From positions 372,001-436,000 of the forward strand of contig WIUZ02000010.1 in the NCBI GenBank assembly GCA_015956445.1: a stretch of 64,000 bases of DNA. Reading direction: 5' to 3'. Under the pieces are notes generated by a model, which was given only the letters and a program-made list of their open reading frames with translations, did not search any database and was not told the DNA's origin. Source of the DNA: Thelephora terrestris (taxonomy: Eukaryota > Basidiomycota > Agaricomycetes > Thelephorales > Thelephoraceae). Both the position numbers and the translations under genes were made by a program. Shown here piece by piece: positions 11,699 through 37,450 of this stretch (position 1 is the stretch's first letter; each line of letters starts with the position of its first letter).

Positions 11699-13861
11699 TG
11701 AGACGCAAAAGGGGCGACCCCAATACCGCTCTTCCCCTAAAAAGGGGGTGACTTGGCCGTGGCATACCTTGAGAACAGACCCTAGAACACCACCGAGTGG
11801 GGGTCTCCCTTAACAAGGGTGAGTGGGGAGTAACCATACTCCCTGACCATGACTGAGACGAGACCAAACTTACTACACCAACAAGAATGAAGCCACGAAA
11901 CATGCTAGAGAAAGATCCCAATTTCTGGAAACCTTCCAATAAAAAGCCCTGCCCTTTTCCCAGCCACCCCCCTCCTGAGGTCAGAGACCTTGCAGAACCT
12001 TGTAAGGACCACCCCCTCAACGTCACACCGAAAAAAGATATCACCTCCTCATCCAACTCCTGCTGACTAAAATCCACATGCACGAGAGAGTGTAACAAGT
12101 CCGATGAACCAGCCGTGACCTCCCCTCAACAGAAAACTGGGGGATGGGCTGGCAAGCGGTATAACAACTCACTGCAGGGCAACCTGGAAGATCCAGGTCA
12201 ATGAGATAGTTGGAGGGCATGAGGTGATAACATGTTGTGCAAACCACCAGACCTGAGAATTCCACCCCTGAGACCACATAGTACCATCCCACTGATACAT
12301 GTTGACAATGTGAGTGCGTCTCCTGCTGTGGGGGTGGTATTTGATGGCGATCTTGCTGTCTTGTGGGGCCTGTGAGTCAGAACTTATCAGTGTCCCAGTG
12401 AGCAGGTCAATTTTGCTGTGTTCATATTGTCCCATGCTTACCATCCACTTTGTATTCCTCTGATCAAGCAATGGCTACATTGAGATCTCCTGTGATCTCG
12501 TTGATCTGGCCCCAGTTGCCTTCAATCACATCTTGGTTGACTACAATCTTGAGATCAAGGTGAACTCTGACAACCAAGGTGTGCACAACTCACCATCTTC
12601 CCATTCAGGATCCATCCCACCCTCCACAGCAATGACAGAGGCGCTATCTATGTTGACAGGAGGAGTGGTTTCCAAATCAACAACAATGGTAACCTGCTGC
12701 TGTGGCCATGGGCGCATGGTGCAGCTTCTCCTGTGCATTCCCAAGCCCCTTGCAAGAAAGCCATCATCACAATGAGGGCAGCTTTTTGTTTTCATCGATG
12801 GATGATGACTATTTACCCTGGGAGATGACATTGGTTGCTGGATAAGATTGCAAGTTGATTATATTTTCTTATTGCATATGTGAATTGCTTACATAACCTA
12901 TATTTCTAATTCAAAGGTAGTTTGGAAGCATTGCCAGTGAATTTAAAATCAATGCTTAATTGCAATTCTCCCAAGATTTTTCCAACAGAGGGTGATCACT
13001 TAGGTGATCTCAGCACCTTGACTAATCACAGCCTTATCAATGCCATCAAGGCTGAGGCCCTACCCCATGGTAGCTCTCTGGTACCTCTGCTATGCCAAAT
13101 GGGCAGGTTAAGAGGGGTGTGTGCAGTGACAAGGGGGGGTTCTGTCCATTATGGATCTTGGGTCACCTGCTGTGTCATCCTGAACTGTAATTACCACTTT
13201 TTTTCTTGGTGAGATGTACTTTGGTCAATTAATCTCATTGTGTTGCAGTTTTCAAGCATGAATGTATGCTCTTCCTTCACCATCAGATGAAGGTAGGGTG
13301 AAGGGGCACACTTTCCTCTATGGCAGATTAAATGCCCTGATCTTCAATTCTCTTGCCATGAGTTTCTACCTTGCTACATGCATTAGTTCAATGCCACTGC
13401 TCTGAGTGACTGTGTAAATGCACAATGACCCCTTGACAGAGGGCACTGTTTGTTTTCTGCTGACACTCAATCTCTTGATGCCTGGAACATATTTGTTATT
13501 TAACCCAAAGGTGAAGGTTGATAATCCACTTTTTTGAAGGGTGCCTTCAATGGGACAAGCCAAAATTCCACAGGGTGTGTATCTGGTTAACCCTATTGAA
13601 CAACAATTCTCCTCAAGTCTTTTTATCAGTTCCTGGAGATGGCTAGTAGGAATACCATAAGAGTTAGTAGATAGCAAAACTGTGTAACCAATCTGTCAAG
13701 CTGGGGCGCAATAACCATGTGTTCAATGGTCCTGATCCACAACTATCTTACCATTTGTCCAGTGTGATGAATTCGGTTGACCATAATAAGACTTCTTTTC
13801 ATTAGGTTGTTCCCAGACTTAAATAGATGATGGTTAAACCAGATTGCATTTGCAAACCTTC
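11699..13861. other. CpG-poor, repeat-like block without an assignable gene
   Basis: About 2.2 kb of lower-GC, CG-poor sequence lies between the MFS gene and the WD40 part of the broken NLR. The only recognisable element is a short zinc-finger-like frame at 12831-12541 (listed separately). Frames at 12922-13212 (+) and 13677-13366 (-) have no motif. The composition resembles a decayed transposon, but no terminal repeats or transposase motif could be found. Confidence 0.4.
12541..12831 (-). other. zinc-finger-like frame, possible transposon remnant
   Basis: A 96-codon frame begins with a C..C-x12-H-x4-C pattern (CPHCDD...GLGMHRRSC), which resembles a single C2H2/C2HC-type finger at a protein N-terminus. 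It is followed by an acidic linker (GGMDPEWEDGEL). Such isolated N-terminal fingers occur in fungal transposon proteins, but nothing downstream confirms this. It lies in CpG-poor sequence and is probably not a working gene. Confidence 0.2.
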
Positions 13862-15391
13862 CTATCTAAGACAAGACACACTATAATAGGAACAATACAC
13901 TCCAGATTCTTTCCAGGTATACAGATGACAGAAATCCAAAATCAAAACCTCTCCAGTGTCATAGCCAGCAACCAGATATTGCCCATCCCACTTTGCCACC
14001 CTAGGTTTTGCATACCTTCCAAACAGTCGGAAGACCACTTTTCCAGTGATTTTGTTTGTAATCCTAGGGGGATTCCTGGCAAATTGCAGCCAAGATTGCT
14101 CTATTGGTGTGTTGGGCAGTGGAACTGGGGAGGAGCCTGGGATTCCAAAGTCCCACCCTTGAAATGAATGAAGCCAATCTCTAATCCAGAGTTTTGAGCC
14201 ATCCAAATAGAAGAAATTTCCTGGTGATTCCTGTTCCAACTCAACTTTGCCCATGGGCTTTCCTGTCCGTATTGACCACACTTCAATGTGCTTGTGATCA
14301 CTCAGGCAAATAACCTTAGATCCATCCCCTGATATCCTGAGCCTCTTGCACTCTAGGACCTTTATAGTTCGGAGGAGTTTAGCTTTCTCAGTGCCCCAGA
14401 TGTGAATCTTCCCACTCTTATGCCCAACCATGATCAGCTTTCCATCTGTCAGCTGGACATCGTCTAAGGCAACACCAGCTGGGGTCTGGAAGAATGCTTT
14501 GCAGAGGCCAGTCGAGATATCCCAGGTCTTTACTACCCCTTTTACATCACTAGAGATAACAATTCCGTTCCCTGGGTACAGACTTATAGACCAAATTGCA
14601 GGTGAAGTAGGTGGAGTGGACTTTTGATCAGAGACAACTTGGTCTGTTTGTGGAACACAAATCTGCCAAAACTCAGCTAGTTCATCATGAGATGCTGAGA
14701 TCAGGGTGGAGGGAGAACAGAACACAGTGTCATAGATTTCAGATGGTACAGTGAATTGCTCCATGGGGTAAGAATCTGGGCTGGTAGTATCCCAGACAAA
14801 GACCTTGCGCACAGTGGCAACTGCAACAAGCCTGCTGTCAGGGGAGAAACAGCATTTTTTAGGGCTACTATCCACAGAGAATTTAGTTACAGTCATATTG
14901 GAGTGTTGGACTGTGACTGTATCCCAATCACACACAACAAATTTAGTACCATCTGGGGAGAATGCAATGCAATAACCAGCATATTCTGAGCCAATCTGAT
15001 GGCCATTCATGTCCCACTTCCAGACCTTGCATCCTGATACAGATATGAGGTGTTGGGGGGTTGTTGGAGAGAAGGTAACACTGTCTATCTTCTGTGCTTG
15101 CTTAATGGTACAGGTGTGTTTGTCACGAACGCGTGACATAGTATCCAAAATCACACAAATAATTCAAGACATTGGTCTTATTCGCGGTAATAATAGTACA
15201 AGGAAGACTAACAGAGACTACAAACTCAAACGAGAACAAATGGATCTACGTCACAAGGGCAGTCCTGAGCGAACGGACAGCGATGAGCGAAGTGGTGAGG
15301 GTTATGAACGCTCTGAGGACAGTACGAGTACGCTCGCGTTACCGGATCCTGCCAGCACTCCCTGCACCCCAATACATCATGAAACAAACTA

Positions 15392-16120
15392 TCATGCATC
15401 TCCCGTTTCACGTCCGTCAACGCCGCGCTCACTAATGCGAACCCATAACGGTCCTGGAGACCCGCTACCTCCACCTTCAACTTCATCCAAACCTGTTGCG
15501 ACTTGTCGGAGGGACGACAACGTTGTCCAGTACGAGCGATCAGACTTTTGCGATTCTTCTTCTGGGTCCTCTCCACCATCTGACGACGAGGGACAGGACT
15601 CCAGGGAGGGGATTGAGGAAGAGGGACTCCCTGATCTTGAAGGCGGCGGAGGGACGACGGGGGAGTGAGGAGCTGCATCGGTGCAGTAGGCTCCATGACA
15701 CCTGTGACCAAAGTATCGGAGGAGAGACTCCTGGAAAGGTTTCCAATGTTCCAAGGCAAAGTGAGAGAAGTCTTTGTTAAGACTGTTAACAACGACATAC
15801 ATGACGTCCATCCTCTTCTCCAGTTTCAAAATCCTATCCTCCCTCTCCTGTTCCATCGCATCCTGCATAGGGGTGACTCCAGGAGCCCACCTTCGAGTCC
15901 TGTTGGGGTCTTCATACCCAGCTCGCTCCCAGAACTCGGCAGGAGCATTGTGAGCGGTCAAGAAGTCCACCGCCACTTGATTGTCGTGGGCAATGTTGGC
16001 AGGGGTATCGTAGAGGTGTTGCTCCACGTTGAGAGGGGCGTCCGTCTTGAAGGACGGGGAGAATTCGAAGGGGGTGGCGGCAGTGTTGAGCAAGGCAGCA
16101 TTGACAGCGTAGGCAGACAT
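15392..16120 (-). CDS. 242-codon frame carried by the LTR-type element, unknown function
   Basis: An uninterrupted frame starting MSAYAVNAALLNTAATPF, with a TATA-like TATATAA about 95 bp upstream on the same strand. Residues about 40-80 contain 'ANIAHDNQVAVDFLTAHN' and 'FWERAGYEDPNR'. Residues about 85-115 (MEQEREDRILKLEKRMDVMY) look like a short coiled coil, and the rest is a Pro/Ser-rich, acidic, probably disordered tail. I recognise no gag, integrase, protease or reverse transcriptase motif. A gag-like structural protein or a captured host gene would both fit. It ends about 270 bp inside the element's left end. Confidence 0.4.
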   Translation of the reverse strand: MSAYAVNAALLNTAATPFEFSPSFKTDAPLNVEQHLYDTPANIAHDNQVAVDFLTAHNAPAEFWERAGYEDPNRTRRWAPGVTPMQDAMEQEREDRILKLEKRMDVMYVVVNSLNKDFSHFALEHWKPFQESLLRYFGHRCHGAYCTDAAPHSPVVPPPPSRSGSPSSSIPSLESCPSSSDGGEDPEEESQKSDRSYWTTLSSLRQVATGLDEVEGGGSGSPGPLWVRISERGVDGRETGDA

Positions 16121-16213
16121 AGTGGGGGAAGGAACCTTAAGAAGAAGTGGTATGGGTGTTTGGTGGGAGTGGAAAAGAGACGATGAGGGGAAAAGACCAA
16201 TAATCCCCCTGGA

Positions 16214-16220
16214 TTATATA
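16214..16220 (-). promoter_or_regulatory. TATA box for the element's minus-strand frame
   Basis: Minus-strand TATATAA, about 95 bp before the ATG at 16120. Position and spacing fit a core promoter; there is no expression evidence. Confidence 0.4.
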
Positions 16221-16328
16221 TGACTGACTCAAAAGGACACCAGGAAAGGAAAACAATAAGACATCACTCATTAAAATCCCAATTAGGAAAAACGAACCCT
16301 TAACCCCAATCGTGATCCCATCAAATCC

Positions 16329-16423
16329 AGAGAAATCCCCACCGATCAAGAGAAATCCCCATCATGCTTCTATTGCTACCATGAAACGAGAGAAATCCCC
16401 ATCGATTAAGAGAAATCCCCATC
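16329..16423. repeat. four copies of AGAGAAATCCCCA
   Basis: The 13-base unit occurs at about 16329, 16349, 16389 and 16409, arranged as two pairs with 20-bp periodicity inside each pair. It lies between the two divergent TATA boxes of the element, so it may be a shared upstream regulatory repeat. Confidence 0.7.
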
Positions 16424-16587
16424 AAACCCCTAATGACTCACTCGCTATTGTTCCCCTATTTCGTACTCGATACCGGTTGTTCTAAGTCCCACTTCTCTGA
16501 CTCATCTACCCTACCCTAAAGTACGCACAGACCACGTTGACTCCTGTTTGGTTCATTGTAGAATTATGACTCCTGTAGAGGATTGGG

Positions 16588-16595
16588 TATATAAG
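16588..16595 (+). promoter_or_regulatory. TATA box for plus-strand transcription within the element
   Basis: TATATAAG followed by a pyrimidine-rich leader and an AATAAA at 16662-16667. TATA then AATAAA within about 75 bp is the arrangement expected of a U3-R boundary in an LTR. Confidence 0.45.
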
Positions 16596-18687
16596 GAAGA
16601 GCGTTCGCTCCTTTCTTTTCCCCATTCTCAATCTCTTCTGTACTTCTCTACCAAACGCTCCAATAAACAAGTAAAGCTGAGAAATACTCCTCACGTCTTA
16701 CTATTTTCTGATCCCTTTCAAGCAGGAATTCTCCTGCTAGTGTATGTTCAGAGCCCCTAACCCATTCCCCTCCACAAGCCCAATCCAACGTCCGGTTATC
16801 CCCGACGCTAGAAGATCTGTCTGGGAGTATAAACTCATCAGGAGTCTTCAAGTAAACCGAACCGCCGGTGACCCGCTGTCTATTCGCGCGACCTTCGAAT
16901 CTAGTGCTAGTCCCCAGTCCCTACCTCCCTACCCCGCTAGCTACTGACTACGCGAGCAGACGACCCCTCGATCGGTCACAGGAGGGTCACGCCCACTTGA
17001 CGTCCCGATCATCGAACCGTTCCCGCGATCCCTTCGACGCGCGTCATCGCACGCTATTGCTGCCTCCGTGGCCGTCCTCCCCGAACGGCACGTGATGTTG
17101 CGATCGGCCGATGTCTCCTGATCCCTTATCTCGCCGAGATGACGTGTCCCCTCCCTCGGTCCGGTTCCCTTCAGTCTGTACACGTGTCGACTCGTTCCCT
17201 CTCGCTCGCCAATCATCTTCGACTGCTCCCGCTCTCCCGCCCGGTTACGATCTTTTGATCTCGAACCCGTAGACTTCCCCTTTCGGTCCTGTTTCTCACG
17301 ATCGCTCCATCCTCTCGGTAAGACCTGTCCCAGCCTCGTTCCGGCCTCCCGATGAACCGTTTGTCTCCCTACCCTGCATCGGACTCTCGTTTATCCCCTT
17401 CTATCTACCTGTTCTTATTCTCCCACCGTTTCTCCATTTGTTCGCTACTTTTCCCATCTCTTTCGCGTAGATCGCACTGTCTTTACCTATAAATACCCTG
17501 TACTAGCTAGTTGAACGACCAAGAAACCCCTGGGCCTCTTCACACCTCTTCTCCCTTCTGCTTGAACGACCTGATCATCGAAAACCTCCAGCTCCTCGCT
17601 CTGACATCGATTCCACTAGCCCCATAGTTCCAATAGACCCCTAGCCTATCGTCATCGTCTAGCAGGAGTTTGCTAGTACGGAGTTCTCCCTTCTCGTCCC
17701 GACAACGTCGCGACCTACTGTGGTTCCCTCTCCTCTGTCTAGCTTCTCTCCCCTTCCCGACCTCTGCACAACCGGCAACCCCTCACCCCCACTTCTGCTA
17801 TTCTGGTCGTGTCCCGACTCCACCCGGATAGTAGCAGTTCACCGGTTTACTTACTCATTTCCCTTATTATCGCCCCTTCGCCGCACTCGATTCCGGAGTC
17901 ACCACTCCCCCTTTCTTATTAGGAGCAGACCATCAGTTCCTTTGGAACTCAGACACTACTGGGAGCGTCCTAGCGACAGTCTACTTCAGTATAAGTCCAA
18001 CCTTCTATTTTCCCAACCCCCGCATCCATCTCACCACTAACGTTCATACCCATTCTCCTGCCATCATCGTCTTGTGGTGGGAAATCCCTACTGAATTACC
18101 TTACTCCGTTTTAGAATACCTCGTAAGCTTCGAATGCCTTAGCGACCACGACTTTGACCCCTTCATTCAACAATTAAGTCAGTTCTGCCAGGACTATCAC
18201 TCGCCCTTCCACCCTTACCAATCAGAATCGCCCCTTTCACTCGACATTCCTCCTCCTCTCACCTCCACCCCGGGAACTCCCTTCAGACCTCGTCCCGACA
18301 CCCCTCATCCGTCCGCTAATCCTCTAGCGCCCCTTTAAACAGTAAGCAGGCCCACAACCCTGACAGTGTTCCCCTGTCTGATAATTCCACAAGAAGATTT
18401 CTCCACTGTAATCTCCTGAGGCAATCATAGCAGAGTTTGTTGAGATGGAAACAGAGGAGACCCATTTTGTGTGACCATTGAATGTCTTGATGACTTCACC
18501 AGTTTGCACATCCCAGAGTTTGACAGTCTGGTCGATACTTCCAGATACCAACATCATCCCATCTGATGAGAAGGCTGAAATGTTAGTGTGCGCAGCATGA
18601 CCAGAAAGAACAGCAGTTTGGCTGCCAGTGAGTGCATCCAAGATAATGATGTTCCCAGATACCAGGCCAACTGCAACAGTGTTTTTT

Positions 18688-19741
18688 CAGTATGAGATGG
18701 ACCATGGGATGCTGCCAAGAGCAACAGTTCGAGAACACATCCCCCACCCAGGTGGACCTCCCCTGATCACCTTGACTACATTTGACAGATTTGCACTGTA
18801 GTACTTGTGAAGCCATGATGAGGAAGGGGAAAATGGGAGGGCATAATGGTATATCTGAGAAGGAGAGTCATGGATTGCATCAAAGTGTTCCAACAGGAAG
18901 CGTTGGGTGTCATTTGTCCACTTGCACACAATTCCAAGCTGAGCAGCCATTAGTTTGGGTCTCAGTCAATGATTTCAATAGCACTCACTGAAGCACACCA
19001 CCGCTCAACATCATTCATGGCATAAACTCCAACATCAAGCTTTTTTGTGAGCACAAGGACTTCAATCCAATACAACAAGCTTGTTGTAGAGAATTCATCT
19101 ATTGCCTTTCTTATCTCCTTGGTATGGGAGCTGCTTCCAGGGATCTCCAGAAGGTGCTTTGTCCAAAAGTGGCAGGAATACTCCAGAGCTTCTCCAATGT
19201 TATTGTTTTTTAGGGTGGAAAGGTTCTTCACCTCACTAAGAACAATATGGTCTTCAAGGTCACAGATGTTTCTCTTCTTCAACCTTTCTTTCATCAACCT
19301 AAGGCATGACAGCAAAATTTCTGCATGATAAACCTTTGGATCCACAAAAAACATTTCATCCCTGCAGCAGCTGGTGTCTGTGAGGAAGTCAGGAAACGAC
19401 TTGTGAAAGGCCTGAACTGGGTTTGCTTTCTTCTCTGGGTCTGCTGTCTTCTCTGTTTCTGGTACAAGGAGGAGGGAGTGGAGGGAGCGGAGGGTAGTAG
19501 GTATTGTGGACATTGGGAGAAGGTCTGAAAGAGCCCTAACTGAGAGAGGGTTGAACACCAGCACCACTGTTGCAAGGACAGTCTTGAAACCAGAATAGAA
19601 CTCCTCCTCACTCAGATCTATACCATCTGAGGCTTGCTCCAGGACTTGAGTGTAGAGGATATCAACCTTTTGGGGATTGATTGAATTTGACAACTGTTGA
19701 GGCATAGACGAACAGGCCAGCAGCCTTCTTGCAGAGAACAT
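18688..19741 (-). repeat. left arm of 1,054-bp inverted duplication
   Basis: This arm encodes, on the minus strand, the post-NACHT helical part of the NLR, in native orientation relative to the WD40 segment. Its translation is identical over the 270-codon and 87-codon frames to the translation of the opposite strand at 19797-20850. The inner end stops at 19741, where the two arms diverge. At the outer end the match continues a few more bases across a run of A/T with one mismatch. Confidence 0.93.
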
Positions 19742-19796
19742 GGGACAAGGAGCGACTGTGACTTTACAGAGCAATGGCCAAGTTCACATGACCTCA

Positions 19797-20850
19797 ATGT
19801 TCTCTGCAAGAAGGCTGCTGGCCTGTTCGTCTATGCCTCAACAGTTGTCAAATTCAATCAATCCCCAAAAGGTTGATATCCTCTACACTCAAGTCCTGGA
19901 GCAAGCCTCAGATGGTATAGATCTGAGTGAGGAGGAGTTCTATTCTGGTTTCAAGACTGTCCTTGCAACAGTGGTGCTGGTGTTCAACCCTCTCTCAGTT
20001 AGGGCTCTTTCAGACCTTCTCCCAATGTCCACAATACCTACTACCCTCCGCTCCCTCCACTCCCTCCTCCTTGTACCAGAAACAGAGAAGACAGCAGACC
20101 CAGAGAAGAAAGCAAACCCAGTTCAGGCCTTTCACAAGTCGTTTCCTGACTTCCTCACAGACACCAGCTGCTGCAGGGATGAAATGTTTTTTGTGGATCC
20201 AAAGGTTTATCATGCAGAAATTTTGCTGTCATGCCTTAGGTTGATGAAAGAAAGGTTGAAGAAGAGAAACATCTGTGACCTTGAAGACCATATTGTTCTT
20301 AGTGAGGTGAAGAACCTTTCCACCCTAAAAAACAATAACATTGGAGAAGCTCTGGAGTATTCCTGCCACTTTTGGACAAAGCACCTTCTGGAGATCCCTG
20401 GAAGCAGCTCCCATACCAAGGAGATAAGAAAGGCAATAGATGAATTCTCTACAACAAGCTTGTTGTATTGGATTGAAGTCCTTGTGCTCACAAAAAAGCT
20501 TGATGTTGGAGTTTATGCCATGAATGATGTTGAGCGGTGGTGTGCTTCAGTGAGTGCTATTGAAATCATTGACTGAGACCCAAACTAATGGCTGCTCAGC
20601 TTGGAATTGTGTGCAAGTGGACAAATGACACCCAACGCTTCCTGTTGGAACACTTTGATGCAATCCATGACTCTCCTTCTCAGATATACCATTATGCCCT
20701 CCCATTTTCCCCTTCCTCATCATGGCTTCACAAGTACTACAGTGCAAATCTGTCAAATGTAGTCAAGGTGATCAGGGGAGGTCCACCTGGGTGGGGGATG
20801 TGTTCTCGAACTGTTGCTCTTGGCAGCATCCCATGGTCCATCTCATACTG
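19797..20850 (+). repeat. right arm of 1,054-bp inverted duplication
   Basis: Reverse complement of 18688-19741, with equal arm length. The 55-bp spacer (19742-19796), read on the plus strand, encodes DFTEQWPSSHDLN, the sequence expected just upstream of this arm in the native protein. So spacer and right arm together are an inverted piece of the gene, and the left arm is the piece left in place. Confidence 0.93.
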
Positions 20851-22480
20851 GAAAAATGTATCTGCATCAACAGATGATCGTTGTACATCATGGAGCTTGA
20901 GCACTTCTGTGATAGGGAAAAGTGGTTTGAGACGAAACCCAGAGTGGATGGGGGGTTCGGGACATCCAGTGATGAAGAATTTGACATTGGGGATTTCATC
21001 TGTGTAGTGGGAGAGGATGGAAAGGATGGCAGATTCAGGTTCATCATCCTTGCACTCATCAAGGGCATCAATGATGATAAGTGTTTGGATGGAGGCAGTT
21101 TTCAGTGGACCAACAATGAGCTTCTTCATCTGTGAGGAGAGGGACTCCTGTTCAACATGGGGTGTTACCCTCAAGACTGGTAGCAACCGCTGACAGAAAG
21201 GGGGGTGGTTGTAGGTGAGCTGGAAAGCAAGGGTTGGGAAGATGATTTGAAGACTGCTCCGGTTCGCAAAATCTTGTGAACAGAAGAAGCTTGCCCCAAG
21301 ATTTCCATCTGCAAAACTTGTTTCCGCAAATGTTTGTGCAATGGTGGATTTTCCAGTTCCGGCCAGGCCATTCAGCCAGAAAACACGTTGGTCTTGTTTG
21401 TTTGTCAACCAATGTTCAATTTCCCTGAGGACATCATGCCTTGTTCCACCCAAGCATCCCTGCCTGTTTCCATAGCTGTACCCGGCATCCGGGGTGTGAT
21501 ACATCCCTTTGAGAAGGGCAAGGTCCGCCAATTCCTATCAATCAATCAGTCTGTGGGGTAAGAAAATGGAGGCGAGGCACACAATAAGCTCGCAATTCTT
21601 GTTATAGATGTCTTGTTGCAAGGAAGTCTGAAGCAAATGTCAGAGGTGCTGGAGGTGTATCATTGATGCATACCTGATAATCTACCATCGCATTGCGGAT
21701 GTCCTCAACCAGTCCACTAAGCCTATCCGCATTGTCGATATTGCAGAAAAAGCCTTCAATGTTTCCTTGATTCACCATCAGGTCCAGGTCTTGTAGAATA
21801 GCTTGCAATTTCCTAGTAATCCACAAATTAGAGTCAGTAGATGATATGAGAGGTCATCATCTAACCTTCCCAGATCATCTCTTCTCAATTGCTCCTCAGT
21901 GTCAGGAACAGCTCTGCAGAGCAAATCAACGAGCGTATGGATCCGGGGTACCAGTGATTCTATTGATTGTTTATTTGCCTTGGTTCTCTGATGTGTTTGT
22001 GAGCGCCGCGAAAAGATACAGAACAGGGTTTGTACCTCGCAATTTTCAAGGATAAAACAGAGCCCTCCCGCAACAGACTTGAGCGGAGGAAAGGCATCTG
22101 CGGAGTCTCTGACCCCAAGGAGAAGCAATTTGGCCATAGAAAATGCGGTGGACTTCCAGCTCGATTTTGCCCCGTCCCCCGCACTCTTGTTGACGGTGGG
22201 ATTCGAGGATTCTGCGGGTGCACTTTGTGTTTCGTTGACAATCGATCGGGATAGATCAGGGGCGGAAGGTTGGTCTGCGTGAGCAGAAAAGAGCGGTCAG
22301 ATGGTTTATCTGGGAAGAGAGACTGTGCGTACCATTGGATTGCTGACCGCCAGCAGTAGAGGGGCCGGGCGTTGTCAAAGTCGAGGCACCGATCTGAAGA
22401 TCAGGGGTCGATTCCGTCTTGGGAGGTTGCGGGGCCGGAACAACTTCGCCTGTGCCCTCGGTGGGGCCAATCTCACTCAT

Positions 22481-23459
22481 TGCTTTGCTTCGCTTTCAAC
22501 GAAGGCATTTCGGTAGATGGAGGAATTCTCGCAATCCCATGTTGTCGCTGATGTGGTGTAGATGATGGGATGGCAGCAGATAAGGCAGACACGTGGGACT
22601 TGTGGCGCTCAGTTCGCACCTCAAGCCACCAAATACTCACCGCGGAGAGTACCCGCCTGCAGACGGGCGGACTTTCATCTTCGCCAGTAAGAAACTACCC
22701 TTCTCTACTTTCCTTGCCTTGTTTTTCCCCGACACTCCAGTTTCGCCTCCCGAGGGTCGTCCGGTGTATCCTTCATCGACTCACAGGTGCAACCGCCACT
22801 TCTCCCAACGTTGAAGGCCGTATGGTCGTCGTAAGCGAACGGGTTCGGAGACCGAAGACCTCCAGACGCATCCCGAAATTGGCCCTGGTGCGGTACCGAC
22901 TCAGACTCCACCGCGCTCCTCAGATAGGGCAGAACACGATACGCTAGGCACCCGCTGAGGGTCCGGGTATTTCAAAGCCGTCTCCTTGGGCTTTCTCTTG
23001 CACGAATTTGCGTCATACCGCACCCTTTGTAGGATGCGGGTGCTCTAGAAGCACCCATCGCGGGCACCTCAGAGGTAGCCACCGCGGATCGATGTCCCCG
23101 AAGTAACCGCGGCATTGGGGTCCCATGTTTTCTTCGTTCATCTCCCCTGATCACGTCTCCCGCACCCTCAACTTTCTTCGCCCCTCATCGAATTCAGGAA
23201 ATTTGCCGATTTGTCTTATTGGACGAAGTTATGGTGCAACGAGAAACGGGCAAGCCATTCGTGCGTACTTGTTTTTTTTTCCTGGATCGACGGTGGATCG
23301 CAAAGTGAGTTCATCACATGTTTGTCAGCTGGACCCTCAGGGAGATGGAAATTGGCCCCCAACTGAGACATTGAGCGCGCTGCAAGAAGGAAAAGATAAG
23401 GGACCAGGAGAACACGAGGTTCTTACTTGCAAGAAATGAAAGCCTCCTCATGCGGAGAA
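22481..23459. other. upstream region of the NLR pseudogene and AIG1-like remnant, no gene resolved
   Basis: CpG-rich sequence with short overlapping frames (for example 22570-22947 +). None has a motif. I searched it for the missing P-loop of the downstream G protein (GxxxxGKS/T) on the plus strand and did not find one. Confidence 0.45.
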
Positions 23460-24435
23460 GGGCTTGGATGTCTTCTTCGTGCTTAGTGTTGGCACGGAAT
23501 GCAACGGATGTCTTCAATGAGGACACAGCCGGTCGTCGTGTGGTTCTGATCGATACTCCCGTGTTCGACGACACCTTATTCAGCGACGTAGACTTTCTCA
23601 ATATGATCGCGGCCTTTCTCGGAAACTTGTAAGTGAGGCTCAAACTCAGCCCCCGTGAATCGAACGACTGAGCTTTTCTCACGCACGGTGTATCGCGTCT
23701 CAACTACAATGCTTCTGTTTGCAGATACGAGGGGGGCAGAAAGCTTGCTGGGGTCCTTTATTTCCACCGGATCTCCGACCCCAAGATGACCGGAATATCG
23801 AGAAGGAAATTTTGGATGTTCCGGAAGCTCTGCGGCGACAATGCCCTCCAGAACGTCGTCATCGTCACCAACATATGTGGACCTCGAGGCCGGTAACGAA
23901 TGTGAGGCCCAGTTGAAGAGAGAGGATGATTTCTCCAAGCCGGTTCTCGACAAGGGCGCTCGGATGGAACGTCATGAGAATACCGCTCTCTCGGCGGAAA
24001 GGATCGTACGCCTCATACTCGGTAATAACCCCTTGCCGCTGCACATCCAGAAGGAGATCTTCGATGAATGCAAGGCCATCCCTGACACTGCCGCTGGCCG
24101 TGAAGAGCTGAATAGGGAGCTAAACGCCCAAATCGAGAGACACCGAGAGGAAATGCGGGTGCTCAGGAACGATTTGGAACAGGTGATAAAGGAGAAAGAC
24201 CAGGAGACCAGGAGGGAACTAGACATGGAAACCCAGAGGTTGCAAATGAAGGTCCAAGGGTTATTGGACGACAGCAAGAGGATGGCATCCGACTACTAGC
24301 TACATATCGACGAGATCAAGGACACACTCCGAAAGGAGAAATCTCGAGGACACAGACAGGATAGAGTTCTCAACCGTCTCCGTGACAGGTTTCGCTCGAG
24401 GATCGCAGCGTACCTCGATGGCGTCGACTTGTAGG
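23460..24435 (+). pseudogene. AIG1-like G-domain protein with coiled-coil tail, decayed
   Basis: The frame reads ATDVFNEDTAGRRVVLIDT, where DTPVFDD stands in place of the usual G3 motif DTPGFDD. A 60-70 bp intron follows (GTAAGT at about 23630 to TTTGCAG), then GGRKLAGVLYFHRISD, ISRRKFWMFRKLCGD and the G4-like VVIVTN. This is the pattern of a large Agaricomycete family related to AIG1/IMAP GTPases. Three defects are visible: no P-loop upstream, a one-base frameshift directly after 'VTNI' at about 23876, and an in-frame TAG at 24297-24299 inside the coiled-coil tail (ELNAQIERHREEMRVL...). The same frame then continues to a final stop at about 24435. It was probably a membrane- or stress-associated GTPase; it is now dead. 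Confidence 0.75.
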
Positions 24436-25098
24436 ACTGTCCTTTTTTCGTCTCTTTGACGGTTAGTCAGCTCTTGTATGTTGTGCTCATGTAGACCAGT
24501 CGGAAACTCGCACGAAACTTCGCACTATCCTGTCAAAATCCTGATTCCATGTGGACAAGTCGACGCACATGATATCAGGCATTATGAAAAATTCTGCACC
24601 TTAAATTCAGTGAGATGAGACAGAAATCACAGATTCAGTCCGTGTGCGGCGCTGAACTTGAGCGCTTACCTCAAAGGCGATCTCAATCGACGCCTTAAGC
24701 TTGATTTCAGTCGCTGCGGTTTTTACAGTGGCATACGAGGCTGGTATCCTCAAGCAGACCACGCACAGCACTGACGATCACTGGTAAGGGATAGAGTGAT
24801 CTAGTGTACAAGACCCTCTGTTGCGTTTCGTGGCCAGCTTCAATACTGGCTCTAGAAACGAACGGTTGAGCCCTCAAGTAGTTGATTAGATTGTAGTTAC
24901 TCCAAAGTTATATCAATGCGCCCGGGTCAAAAACAGCGCGTCAACTCCGCAGAGAGAGGTTCATGAACGCAACCAAGGGTCTAGGTAAAGTTTATCAACC
25001 TTAGGTACCAGAGAATAGTATCTTCAAACGATGTCGCACGGCAATATGTAAATTAAAATGACCAAAAGTCGGTCACAATCTTGACGTTGGTCCGTACG
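24436..25098. other. intergenic, no gene seen
   Basis: AT-richer stretch between the AIG1-like remnant and the convergent zinc-cluster remnant. No frame, repeat or RNA gene was recognised. Confidence 0.5.
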
Positions 25099-31268: not shown

Positions 31269-34200
31269 TTAAGCTTGGAGATGGCACATGAGTTGCCAGG
31301 GATAGGAGGCAGCATCGTGTCCGGAAAACTCACCACTGGAATCTGGAATGTCTGGGATAGACTGGCTTTCGATCGCTTGTTCAATTTTTTGGAGGAGTTT
31401 TCTGCAGCCCCGTGCATCCTTCGCCGCCCTGAGCCTCTCAAAGATCTCCAGTGCCGCCAAACCCTCGGATCTCGCCTCTTCCAGCCTACCTTGCTTAAAC
31501 CAAAGCTCAGCCTGAAAGACCATCGCGCGACCCAGTTCGTATGCGTTGTCAACCACATGGGATTTGGCTTGTTGAATGCGGGTGTTTGCATTGCCAGACT
31601 CGCCTTTGGACGAGAATAGCTCTGCCATAGCGTAATGAATCCAAAAGAGTAAATTTTGCCAATTGAAGCGGGATGCGATTTGGAGGGCTGTCTCGTAATG
31701 GTCTATGGCCTTCTCTTTCTTTCCCTTGCGACGATATATCTCACCAAGAACGTGATGAGATGTGCACAGCAGAAATTCTTGGCCTTTCTCCGGGATAAGA
31801 TTAACCGCGCGTGATGCCGCGCTTTCTGCAGCGTTGAGTTGTTTGTCGTCATGCAACAACCAAGCAAGCTGTTTCAAACATTGCGCTTGATTGATCGTGT
31901 CCCTGCACCCTTTGTGGATTTCTGATGCTTCCTCCACTTGCCGTATTCCTTCCGTGTAAAGTCCAAGCCTCCGATTGACATCGCATAGGAAGCCTAATGT
32001 CCGAGCAACCCGAACATCATCTCCCTTCTCCCTCTCGAGCGTTAAAGTGTGAATAAGCAGTCGCTTTTCTTCTGCGGGATTTCCAATCCTTCCAAACAAG
32101 GTTGAGAGCCTCAACAAGCATTCAGCCTTCGATCGATGACCATCAGGAAGGCCTTCGATCTTCGGCCCTAGCAGAGTGTGCCGTGGCTTGTGCCAAACCA
32201 GGTGGTCCATAAAGTTATGACAAGCATCCCAGACCTCACAAGCACTCAGGTCAATTGAAATGAAAACATTGAGCAAATGCTCAACGTTTATATCCTCCCA
32301 CTTGATCCACTCCGCTTCTCGGAAACTGGGTTGATTAGGGTTAAGGTGAACTGACAACCGGGTGAAGTAACGATCCCTGGTTGCACAGAGGAGGGGGGAA
32401 GATTCTGGATTGAGGGGGCAGAGGTAGTCTCTGATCGGAGCCAACATCGTGATGAACCCGTGGCTTCGGTGCGTCAAAGAGAGAATGCAGAATTTGTCGA
32501 AGATCTCCCTTCTGTTGGAGGTTGTGGGGAATAACCAGTCGAGGTTTTTCTCGTCGATCCCTTGTGGAAAGAATGCGACAACTTCGAGGAGCTCACGAGC
32601 ACTGGGGGGGATTTCACAGGGGATTGGAGAAGGGACCAGTTTGTGGAGGATCGGAGAAGGGATGAATTTGCTGAAGGCTGGGGAAGCAGCGAGTCGGTGA
32701 AATTTTGACCGAGGGTCGGGTTGGTGGGGTTCTGATGGAGGGACGAGTTGGTGGAATGTCGGGGAATTGAGTGAGAGTTCAATGGTTGCAGCCAGGCTCT
32801 CTTTGCCAGGTGTCTGAAGTACCTGCACTCGGCGTGCATCCCACTCCCTGGCCAATCGATCATAATCCCACACGTTCTGAGCAGCCGTGGTGGCAAGCAG
32901 TGTGATTGAGAGCGCGTGGAAATCTAGTTGCCTGACAAGGTCGCCGATGACGTCTGATCGTCCGCCGTCGGTGTAGATGGCATAGAAGATCTCACATGCC
33001 GATTCCACTGACAGTGTAGGGACGACTGGACGCTTGCAGTGTGGGGGGACAGTGGTGATGCGCGAGGTGATCCCGAGGCAGATGTTCTCAAAGCGGCTCA
33101 ATTCCTCCACCGCGGCATATATCTCCCGGAAGTCCCTCCCCTGCGGGTCGAGAATGGATTCAGCATTGTCGAGAAACAGGATCATCTCCCTCGAGCCCAG
33201 AAACGGTCGCAAGGGAGTCAAATCCTCAGGGTTTTCGACGCCTGCACCAATAACTTGGGAGATCCGGGCGAGAAAATGGGGGTACGAAGCTGGGAACCGA
33301 TCGCAGCGGATGAATCGTCGGTTGTCGCCAAACCGGTCCTTGACGCGATCGTGGTGGAGGACGGCCAGCGCGATGGATGTTTTTCCGATGCCCCCTGCAC
33401 CGATGAGAGCGACAGGTTCGAGGTTTTCGGCAAGACCGAGGATCTCCTCAACCAGTTGGTCACGTCCGAAACAGGCCCTGGGAGGCGGGGGAGGAGATTC
33501 TCCCAGAGAAACACTACGCAAAGGTAAGCGGTGGGCCTCCAAGTTTCACAAACACCGACCTTGCTTGAGTCTCGAAGACCATCAGTGTCTCGTTGACGAC
33601 GAATAGGAAGCCGTACTCACTGTTCGATGCTGTTCAATAGCACCTCCTTGACCTGTCGACGTGTTTCGATGGCCATCTGCGACCAGCATGATTGCCAGTT
33701 CGGTCTGAGGGAGGTTGTTATCAAATGCCAAGCGGGACTGACTGAACGTACGTTGAAGATGTGGAGGATCCTATTGAGGTCCCGGCTCCAGGCGGCAATG
33801 CTATCTTTGTCGTTCTTCGCGTGGAGAACCTGAGAGGCTGCATTTCGTTTGCCCAGCTTGACAATCTCCCTCTGGATCGTGGCCACAGTCCTGCATTGAG
33901 GACTCAGTGAGTAAAACACGCGACGGCCACATCACCACATCAACTCACGTGGTCAACTCTCCAATTGCCTCGAGCGCCACCGGACTGACTTCGTCCAACC
34001 GCCTGCCTTTCGACCCCCGGTCGAGAGCTTTGCATACGCCGGCGCACAATCGCCCAAGATCAATATATTCCTGTTTGTTGAACATCGGGTCCTGAGTGAA
34101 CGTGAGCCTGGAGCTCACAACCACGGAGTGGGAGGGAACGTACTCTGATTGTGGTCAGGAGGGCACCGGCGGAATCGAACGCATCTTGAGCTGGTGGGAT

Positions 34201-36700: not shown

Positions 36701-36710
36701 ATCTTATCGC

Positions 36711-37045
36711 ACGACCGTTACTATCCTATCCATTGGAGAATATAGTCGCAAGATGATGTTTACTCTTCGATATCTAAACTCTTCCGCATCGCATACACCA
36801 ATTATCGGAATTGGAACATCGGGGTGGGACTGGCTGTGTATAGGTAAGCAACCTACCCCAGGAGCGAAGATCTCGTATCGACGCGTGTGTGATTCGCAAA
36901 TAACGTCCAATGTAGGGCGACCACAATCGATGCGCAGCAGGAGCACGTACTGCCATAGGCCCATGATCCGGGGAAGGCTTGCAGCGTGTGAGTACACGAG
37001 GTAGTGGAGTGGCCGTGGGTGACACAGTACCCACCCACACAGTTT
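36711..37045. repeat. dispersed repeat, copy A (matches 43989-44340)
   Basis: The two copies share ACGACCG..., the 'TACTCTTC.ATATCTAAA' stretch, GGGGTGGGACTGGC and GATCCGGGGAAGGCTTGCAG in the same order and orientation, about 85 percent alike. In copy B it lies just downstream of the seven-helix gene. Confidence 0.8.
36806..36923 (+). repeat. left arm of a 118-bp inverted repeat
   Basis: Reverse-complement match to 37048-37165 with one mismatch (CAAATAAC versus CAGATAAC in the same orientation). Copy B at 44.1 kb has only this arm, so this arm is original. Confidence 0.9.
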
Positions 37046-37047
37046 TC

Positions 37048-37165
37048 TGGTCGCCCTACATTGGACGTTATCTGCGAATCACACACGCGTCGATACGAGA
37101 TCTTCGCTCCTGGGGTAGGTTGCTTACCTATACACAGCCAGTCCCACCCCGATGTTCCAATTCCG
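37048..37165 (-). repeat. right arm of a 118-bp inverted repeat
   Basis: An inverted copy of 36806-36923. It sits exactly where the sequence jumps from the 44.3-kb homology to the 45.1-kb homology, so it is the filler at a deletion junction. Confidence 0.9.
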
Positions 37166-37450
37166 TCCGATGTTGAGTGTCGAGCTGACAGCGTCGAGGG
37201 CGCGCGGCAAGATTCGACAAGGAGTCACTTGGTGACGATGGCCTTGTAAAATTTGTTGAGTCTGACGAGAGGGCCCATCGAGTCACCATGTATCAGCGAC
37301 ATTCCAAGGTCGCTACGATGCACGGAAAACCCGATCGCTCTCTCTACTCCCTTGGACGCTCGGTGCGACTTCGGCCCGGCTGCGCGAGGGCTCGTCTCAC
37401 CTATCCCATACTTGTCGCGATCGGTTTGCAGAGGACATACTATGTACTAC
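37163..37450 (-). pseudogene. fragment of a seven-helix membrane protein gene (copy of 45096-45415)
   Basis: CCGATGTTGAG, GCTGACAGCGT, GATGGCCTTGTAAAATTTG and TTGAGTCTGACGAGAGGG appear in the same order as in the intact gene at 44730-46042. They correspond on the minus strand to its helix 6-7 coding region. After about 37310 the match is patchy, ending around GGTTTGCAGAGGACATAC. It is a non-functional fragment. Confidence 0.8.

Follow-up and report, generated by a model that had tools for sequence, protein, structure and literature searches.

How did a nearly perfect inverted repeat come to lie between the NACHT and WD40 parts of a receptor gene, is it real, and does it serve any purpose? It is found in a minus-strand NACHT-WD40 receptor gene within a stretch of 64,000 nt, here called the window (C2:372001–436000 of an assembly of 40.6 Mb in 60 contigs). 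We consider the fold-back to be a real structural mutation that came late, in a gene already broken by then, namely a deletion with inverted duplication, most likely produced by template switching; the probability of this reading is put at roughly 0.8. A selected function of the fold-back is not expected.

Geometry of the fold-back and the native order in paralogs

The repeat search identified two inverted arms of 1,060 nt each, separated by a spacer of 55 nt (Table 1). Aligned base by base, a check proposed in an earlier, sequence-only reading of this DNA, the arms differed at exactly one of the 1,060 positions (18687/20851). The runner-up inverted pair in the surrounding 10 kb was merely 40 nt long at 73%, so a chance origin of the 1,060-nt pair is excluded. 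The sequence-only reading had described a fold-back duplication of 1,054 nt at 18688/20850 with a 55-bp spacer. This duplication is real; the edges given delimit its strictly identical core, and the homology is 6 nt longer on each side. The accompanying statement that the arms translate over about 357 codons did not hold. There is not one open frame: the native frame ends soon after the spacer, with ~71 nt of coding sequence missing from both arms. The longest frame through the arm comprised 278 aa and ended in an apparent unspliced intron.

Table 1. Coordinates of the receptor gene, its fold-back and repeat nest, and of the second fold-back (window positions)
Feature	Positions	Strand	Basis
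WD40 region, remainder; single-base gaps with respect to the best paralog	13740..15120	-	Profile search, paralog alignment
Target-site duplication of the outer element (GTGTT, 5 bp), left copy	15116..15120	.	Paralog alignment
Nested repeat elements splitting WD40: outer element 15121–16869 and 17842–18365, younger inner element between	15121..18365	.	Copies elsewhere; WD40 of paralogs runs on from 18366 into 15120
Target-site duplication of the outer element (GTGTT, 5 bp), right copy	18366..18370	.	Paralog alignment
WD40 region, first part; contiguous with the left arm, an arrangement shared with paralogs	18366..18681	-	Homology to L051
Left arm, native in position and orientation and contiguous with WD40; site of the one derived base (18687)	18682..19741	-	Repeat search, paralog alignment
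Spacer, 55 nt, inverted with respect to NACHT and WD40; native place here lost	19742..19796	+	Paralog alignment, translation
Right arm, inverted copy; coding sense opposite to NACHT	19797..20856	+	Repeat search, paralog alignment
Two junction bases, continuing neither the arm nor the NACHT match	20857..20858	.	Paralog alignment
NACHT domain exon (NPHP3_N PF24883, NACHT PF05729); open frame enters the inverted arm and stops at 20737	20859..21531	-	Profile search, frame
N-terminal part of the NACHT-WD40 gene; frame from ATG 22540 stops after 14 codons, later start possible	21532..22540	-	Similarity to the best paralog
5' flank, ~83% with respect to that of the best paralog	22541..24758	-	Comparison with the best paralog
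Second, smaller fold-back: arms 36806–36926 and 37045–37165, 118-nt spacer	36806..37165	.	Repeat search, alignment of relatives

The native order was taken from paralogs. They were searched for with the NACHT part, and the best 40 of 101 candidates were scored; among these, long matches outside the window reached 68–84%. In all 21 paralogs aligned over the NACHT border, the order was NACHT, 38 nt, spacer and arm, in a single orientation. In all 18 loci aligned over the arm/WD40 border, the arm ran straight into WD40. The native order NACHT, spacer, arm, WD40 that had been proposed from the letters alone is thereby confirmed at both borders. In the window, NACHT is followed by an inverted unit of spacer plus arm, then by the arm and WD40; the 38 nt before the native spacer are gone, and the native borders of the window copy are lost. 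Given the paralog order at both borders, two changes set the window apart: the 38 nt were lost together with the spacer that stands next to NACHT in the native order, and a second spacer-arm unit was added in inverted form. Read on the strand opposite to NACHT, the spacer encodes DFTEQWPSSHDLN; in the paralogs, spacer and arm are connected in this same sense. The claim that the spacer and one arm turned over together within an NLR gene was therefore well founded.

The motif TG[A/G]AAAAA at the outer ends had been interpreted as microhomology. It is instead the end of the arm: TGGAAAAA is arm sequence, and CTGGAA stands at this place in 18/18 paralogs. The second G of CTGGAA is kept in the inverted copy and has become A in the WD40-side copy. 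Because the paralogs have CTGGAA and the inverted copy keeps the G, the arm reaches 20856/18682, and the WD40 side acquired the mismatch afterwards. Both window copies have a run of five A at a place where AACAA, or something close to it, is found in most of the paralogs.

A transposon with terminal inverted repeats was considered and rejected. When 44 loci (several of them overlapping) were checked, the arm was present in both orientations only in the window's own three (L001, L005 and L035) and in none of the 41 others. Moreover, the outer borders lie inside gene sequence.

State of the receptor gene

The open exon at 20737–21531 matched NPHP3_N (PF24883) with 100.9 bits and NACHT (PF05729) with 27.7 bits, both over the cut-off. 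WD40 (PF00400) was matched with 30.4 bits in 13862–15154 of the window. The best paralog (L051) has both NACHT and WD40, the latter with 82.9 bits for PF00400 in its second frame. In the window, WD40 is not readable together with NACHT: the repeat nest splits WD40, and the fold-back and a frameshift lie between the two domains. The window gene is therefore a pseudogene of the NACHT-WD40 NLR family. Its upstream region was kept, as the 5' flank is still ~83% alike that of the best paralog. The start codon at 22540 is common to both genes, and the window frame stops early (Table 1). In a NACHT motif, the window has GCP, as against GRP in 27 of 29 paralog loci (one had GHP, and in one the motif was not found).

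Compared with 21/21 paralogs, both arms lack a stretch of ~71 nt (71 nt in 19 paralogs, 74 nt in L019 and 68 nt in L027). The reading frame of the best paralog passes through this stretch, and the native frame of the window stops just after the deletion. As the frame of the best paralog is open there, the loss is a coding deletion. Being common to both arms, it is older than the fold-back, unless gene conversion spread it from one arm to the other. On this basis, the receptor gene appears to have been broken before the fold-back arose. An alternative reading of the loss as a lost intron, which would point to a cDNA origin, was rejected: the frame of the best paralog reads through, and further on an apparent short intron, as read from DNA rather than RNA, is retained in both arms.

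We also checked how changes were distributed over codon positions, using sites at which at least four paralogs were present and all agreed. The window was changed at 121 of 2,090 such sites (49/743, 34/821 and 38/526 for positions 1, 2 and 3), giving an odds ratio of 1.39 for the third versus the first and second positions (p 0.11). Limited to positions 1–2211, the range used for the paralogs, 57 of 1,214 sites were changed (ratio 1.64, p 0.10). The ratio was 3.53 for 16 pooled paralog rows and fell to 2.57 without L012, which by itself gave 68 of the 142 third-position changes. The third-position share of the window differed from that of the paralogs with p 0.009 when L012 was included and with p 0.16 when it was left out. 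The ratios of single paralogs scattered from 0 to 6, with few changes each, and the window arm plus spacer taken alone gave a ratio of 2.45 (p 0.03). Relaxed constraint is thus suggested by the codon positions; this result is not robust and depends largely on one paralog, L012. The broken state can be judged without this test, from the ~71-nt deletion, the repeat nest and the early stop.

Selection for a truncated NACHT protein as the product was likewise not supported. The exon is open, but its private changes were distributed 5/10/5 over codon positions 1/2/3 (small numbers), the GRP motif is altered and the frame from the shared start stops early.

Most copies of the outer repeat element in the WD40 region had 76–90%, and copies of the inner element had 93–99% (best 40 of 468 candidates scored). 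In this nest (15121–18365), the outer element has TG...CA ends, and the inner element is ~1 kb long. A further copy of the outer element was seen at L051:7657–9964, ~55 nt past the WD40 match of the best paralog (contig C34); hence, this element adjoins or sits in two NLR genes of the family. Elsewhere in the window, a separate large ORF at 31269–33542 had TPR matches and weak AAA_16/nSTAND1 matches below the cut-offs, possibly representing a second STAND-type receptor.

Origin and age of the fold-back

Template switching had been suggested from the sequence alone, and it is supported here as the likely route: a deletion with inverted duplication is what such switching leaves. A strand growing from the WD40 side would have quit its template at the arm end, during copying or repair, and jumped ~55 nt ahead onto the opposite strand. 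From there, it would have copied the spacer and the arm backwards up to the arm/WD40 border, and the new copy would then have been joined to the NACHT side with a loss of 38 nt. We infer a single replicative, DNA-templated event in the WD40 -> NACHT direction. In this order of points, the template starts ahead of the first jump, so an opposite template strand would be needed, and a simple folding of the end would not suffice.

The apparent intron in both arms speaks for a DNA template. It also argues against an inverted copy made by reverse transcription, e.g. an inverted retro-insertion, for which the repeat-element nest 0.3 kb off might be cited. However, the 5-bp duplication borders the nest and not the arms, and we regard such an origin as scarcely credible. 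An artefact of the library or the assembly, i.e. a fold-back read or an amplification chimera built into the contig, was also considered. Its attraction lies in the near identity of the arms and in the 55-nt offset at the turn, which fits fold-back reads, as their second segment lies within 200 bp on the other strand (PMC12870357). Such reads are a recognised artefact of ONT libraries; in the same study, ~0.55–0.6% of ONT genomic reads fold back, and they were virtually absent from its PacBio HiFi data. Yet a fold-back read returns to its own flank, whereas the second arm exits into NACHT instead of WD40, and 38 nt are missing. An artefact is also opposed by the content of the assembly, which holds no unrearranged copy (the best full-length matches elsewhere were 84% for the NACHT part and 88% for the arm), by the one base difference between the arms, whose ancestral state is clear, and by the diverged arms of a second fold-back in the window. 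Furthermore, 205,801 unique bases outside the window contained no further inverted pair with closely spaced arms when the limits were set at 50 nt or more and 85% or more; this sample was not random, consisting mostly of NLR and repeat loci, plus some loci of RNAi genes and a 10-kb region picked arbitrarily. Overall, we consider an artefact improbable.

More widely spaced inverted pairs were present in the 205,801-base sample at L029 (1,896 nt between) and L055 (726 nt between). At lower identity, L029 also had pairs of 61–97 nt at 77–84% with 195–370 nt between, and self-overlapping ones near 70–78%. The wide pair of L029 (269–889 and 2786–3406) consists of 621-nt arms that are 94.5% alike and 1.9 kb apart, and it lies beside an NLR paralog on contig C10; its arms are possibly transposon ends. 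A second haplotype was not seen: apart from itself, a neighbouring 3-kb stretch matched no more than a single piece of 243 nt at 70%.

The second fold-back lies ~16 kb from the first, and its arms of 121 nt have two mismatches. Seven related copies of this region were found on the same contig. The six that were aligned are collinear with ~36702–37047 and thus with one arm and the spacer only; in these, ~356 to 754 nt intervene before the sequence picks up again with what the window has at ~37165–37210. At position 36899, the right arm agrees with 6/6 relatives, and the left arm carries the change. By this alignment, the second fold-back is likewise a deletion with inverted duplication, with arms more diverged per base. 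Two fold-backs at a distance of 16 kb, with unequally diverged arms, suggest that local template switching visibly changes this contig.

Concerning age, the arm plus spacer had 27 private changes in 593 paralog-invariant sites, as compared with one difference between the arms in 1,060 nt. The fold-back would thus be a late event compared with the separation from the paralogs, provided that the likeness of the two copies is not maintained by gene conversion. The description of the fold-back as very recent stands with this reservation: it agrees with the small difference between the arms and fails if conversion has been at work. A less likely reading is that of an old fold-back in which gene conversion preserves the identity of the arms, as it does in large palindromes. 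The sole mismatch is situated 6 nt inside the outer end, the place at which conversion should be weakest; by chance, a mismatch would fall so close to one or the other end in ~1% of cases. The 71-nt deletion, too, could have been carried from one arm to the other by conversion. Then again, one mismatch is a single datum that a recent origin explains just as simply, and the smaller fold-back in the window has 2 mismatches in 121. From the position of the sole mismatch, the age of the fold-back may be understated. The late, template-switched mutation remains our preferred reading.

Possible meaning and known systems

If the fold-back locus is transcribed, it would yield a truncated NACHT reading frame together with a hairpin RNA, the transcript being predicted to fold into a hairpin of 1 kb. 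This invites the reading of a functional inverted-repeat locus: one template switch would have turned a dead NLR gene into a natural hairpin locus, whose putative siRNAs act on the NLR family and damp the living paralogs. If true, this would be the accidental birth of a family-wide immune-receptor silencer. The genome encodes the domains of Argonaute, RdRP and Dicer (13 profile matches for Argonaute, 20 for RdRP and 2 for Dicer_dimer, which are exon pieces and not gene counts), and the kept 5' flank would suit a transcribed locus. Out of 1,034 21-mers of the arm, 354 recurred exactly in one or more of 28 paralog loci, and 23 of these loci had some. However, the arm of an ordinary paralog shares more (736 of 1,106 21-mers versus 27 loci), and siRNA matching specific to the family was rejected on this comparison. 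Moreover, the gene had been broken before, and a single copy from a single assembly gives no indication of selection. A silencing hairpin is hence possible but unsupported, and we think it very unlikely.

With the fold-back read as a late mutation, the locus is a well-bracketed case of member loss in large fungal-type NLR families, and part of the order of decay is legible: the frameshift came before the fold-back. The term fungal-type is used on account of the NLR type, the short introns and the genome size. A nearly perfect inverted repeat of 2.2 kb, a kept 5' flank and RNAi genes in the same genome also make it a natural test of chance-hairpin silencing of gene families.

The mutation is probably real; it is well resolved but of an ordinary, known kind, and the gene that carries it is a dead one from a large receptor family. 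No title among the matches listed from the open literature named a fold-back inside a fungal NLR, which is no proof of absence. Deletion with inverted duplication (DelInvdup) is a described class of complex structural variants (PMC9510932). The fold-back resembles it in having an inverted extra copy beside the native copy and in the loss of native bases at one border. It differs in its size of ~1.1 kb, in its place in a fungal-type NLR pseudogene and in having been found via paralogs and not via reads.

Template-switch events have also been described with four points (PMC7954356). In that model, too, a nearby reverse-complement copy lies between two jumps, and we read the order in the window as 3-1-2-4 in the WD40 -> NACHT direction. 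The source describes it for short-range events, whereas the window copy is 1.1 kb long.

In yeast, fold-back inverted insertions have been seen, with local ones mostly of 5–34 bp (PMC11724301), and hairpin-capped, dicentric chromosomes are the subject of another study (PMC10622511). Both studies report fold-back synthesis together with end joining. These double-strand-break fold-backs share with the first fold-back of the window the inverted adjacent DNA, the end joining and some loss. In the latter, however, the template lies ahead of the turn, so simple end folding is insufficient; the second fold-back (36806–37165) fits simple folding better.

Among the repeats of basidiomycete NLRs, WD40 prevails (PMC4986451). 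The window gene agrees with this fungal NACHT-WD40 family in its domains and in its many copies in the genome, and is set apart by its broken state, with a frameshift shared by both arms, a fold-back, a repeat nest in WD40 and an early stop.
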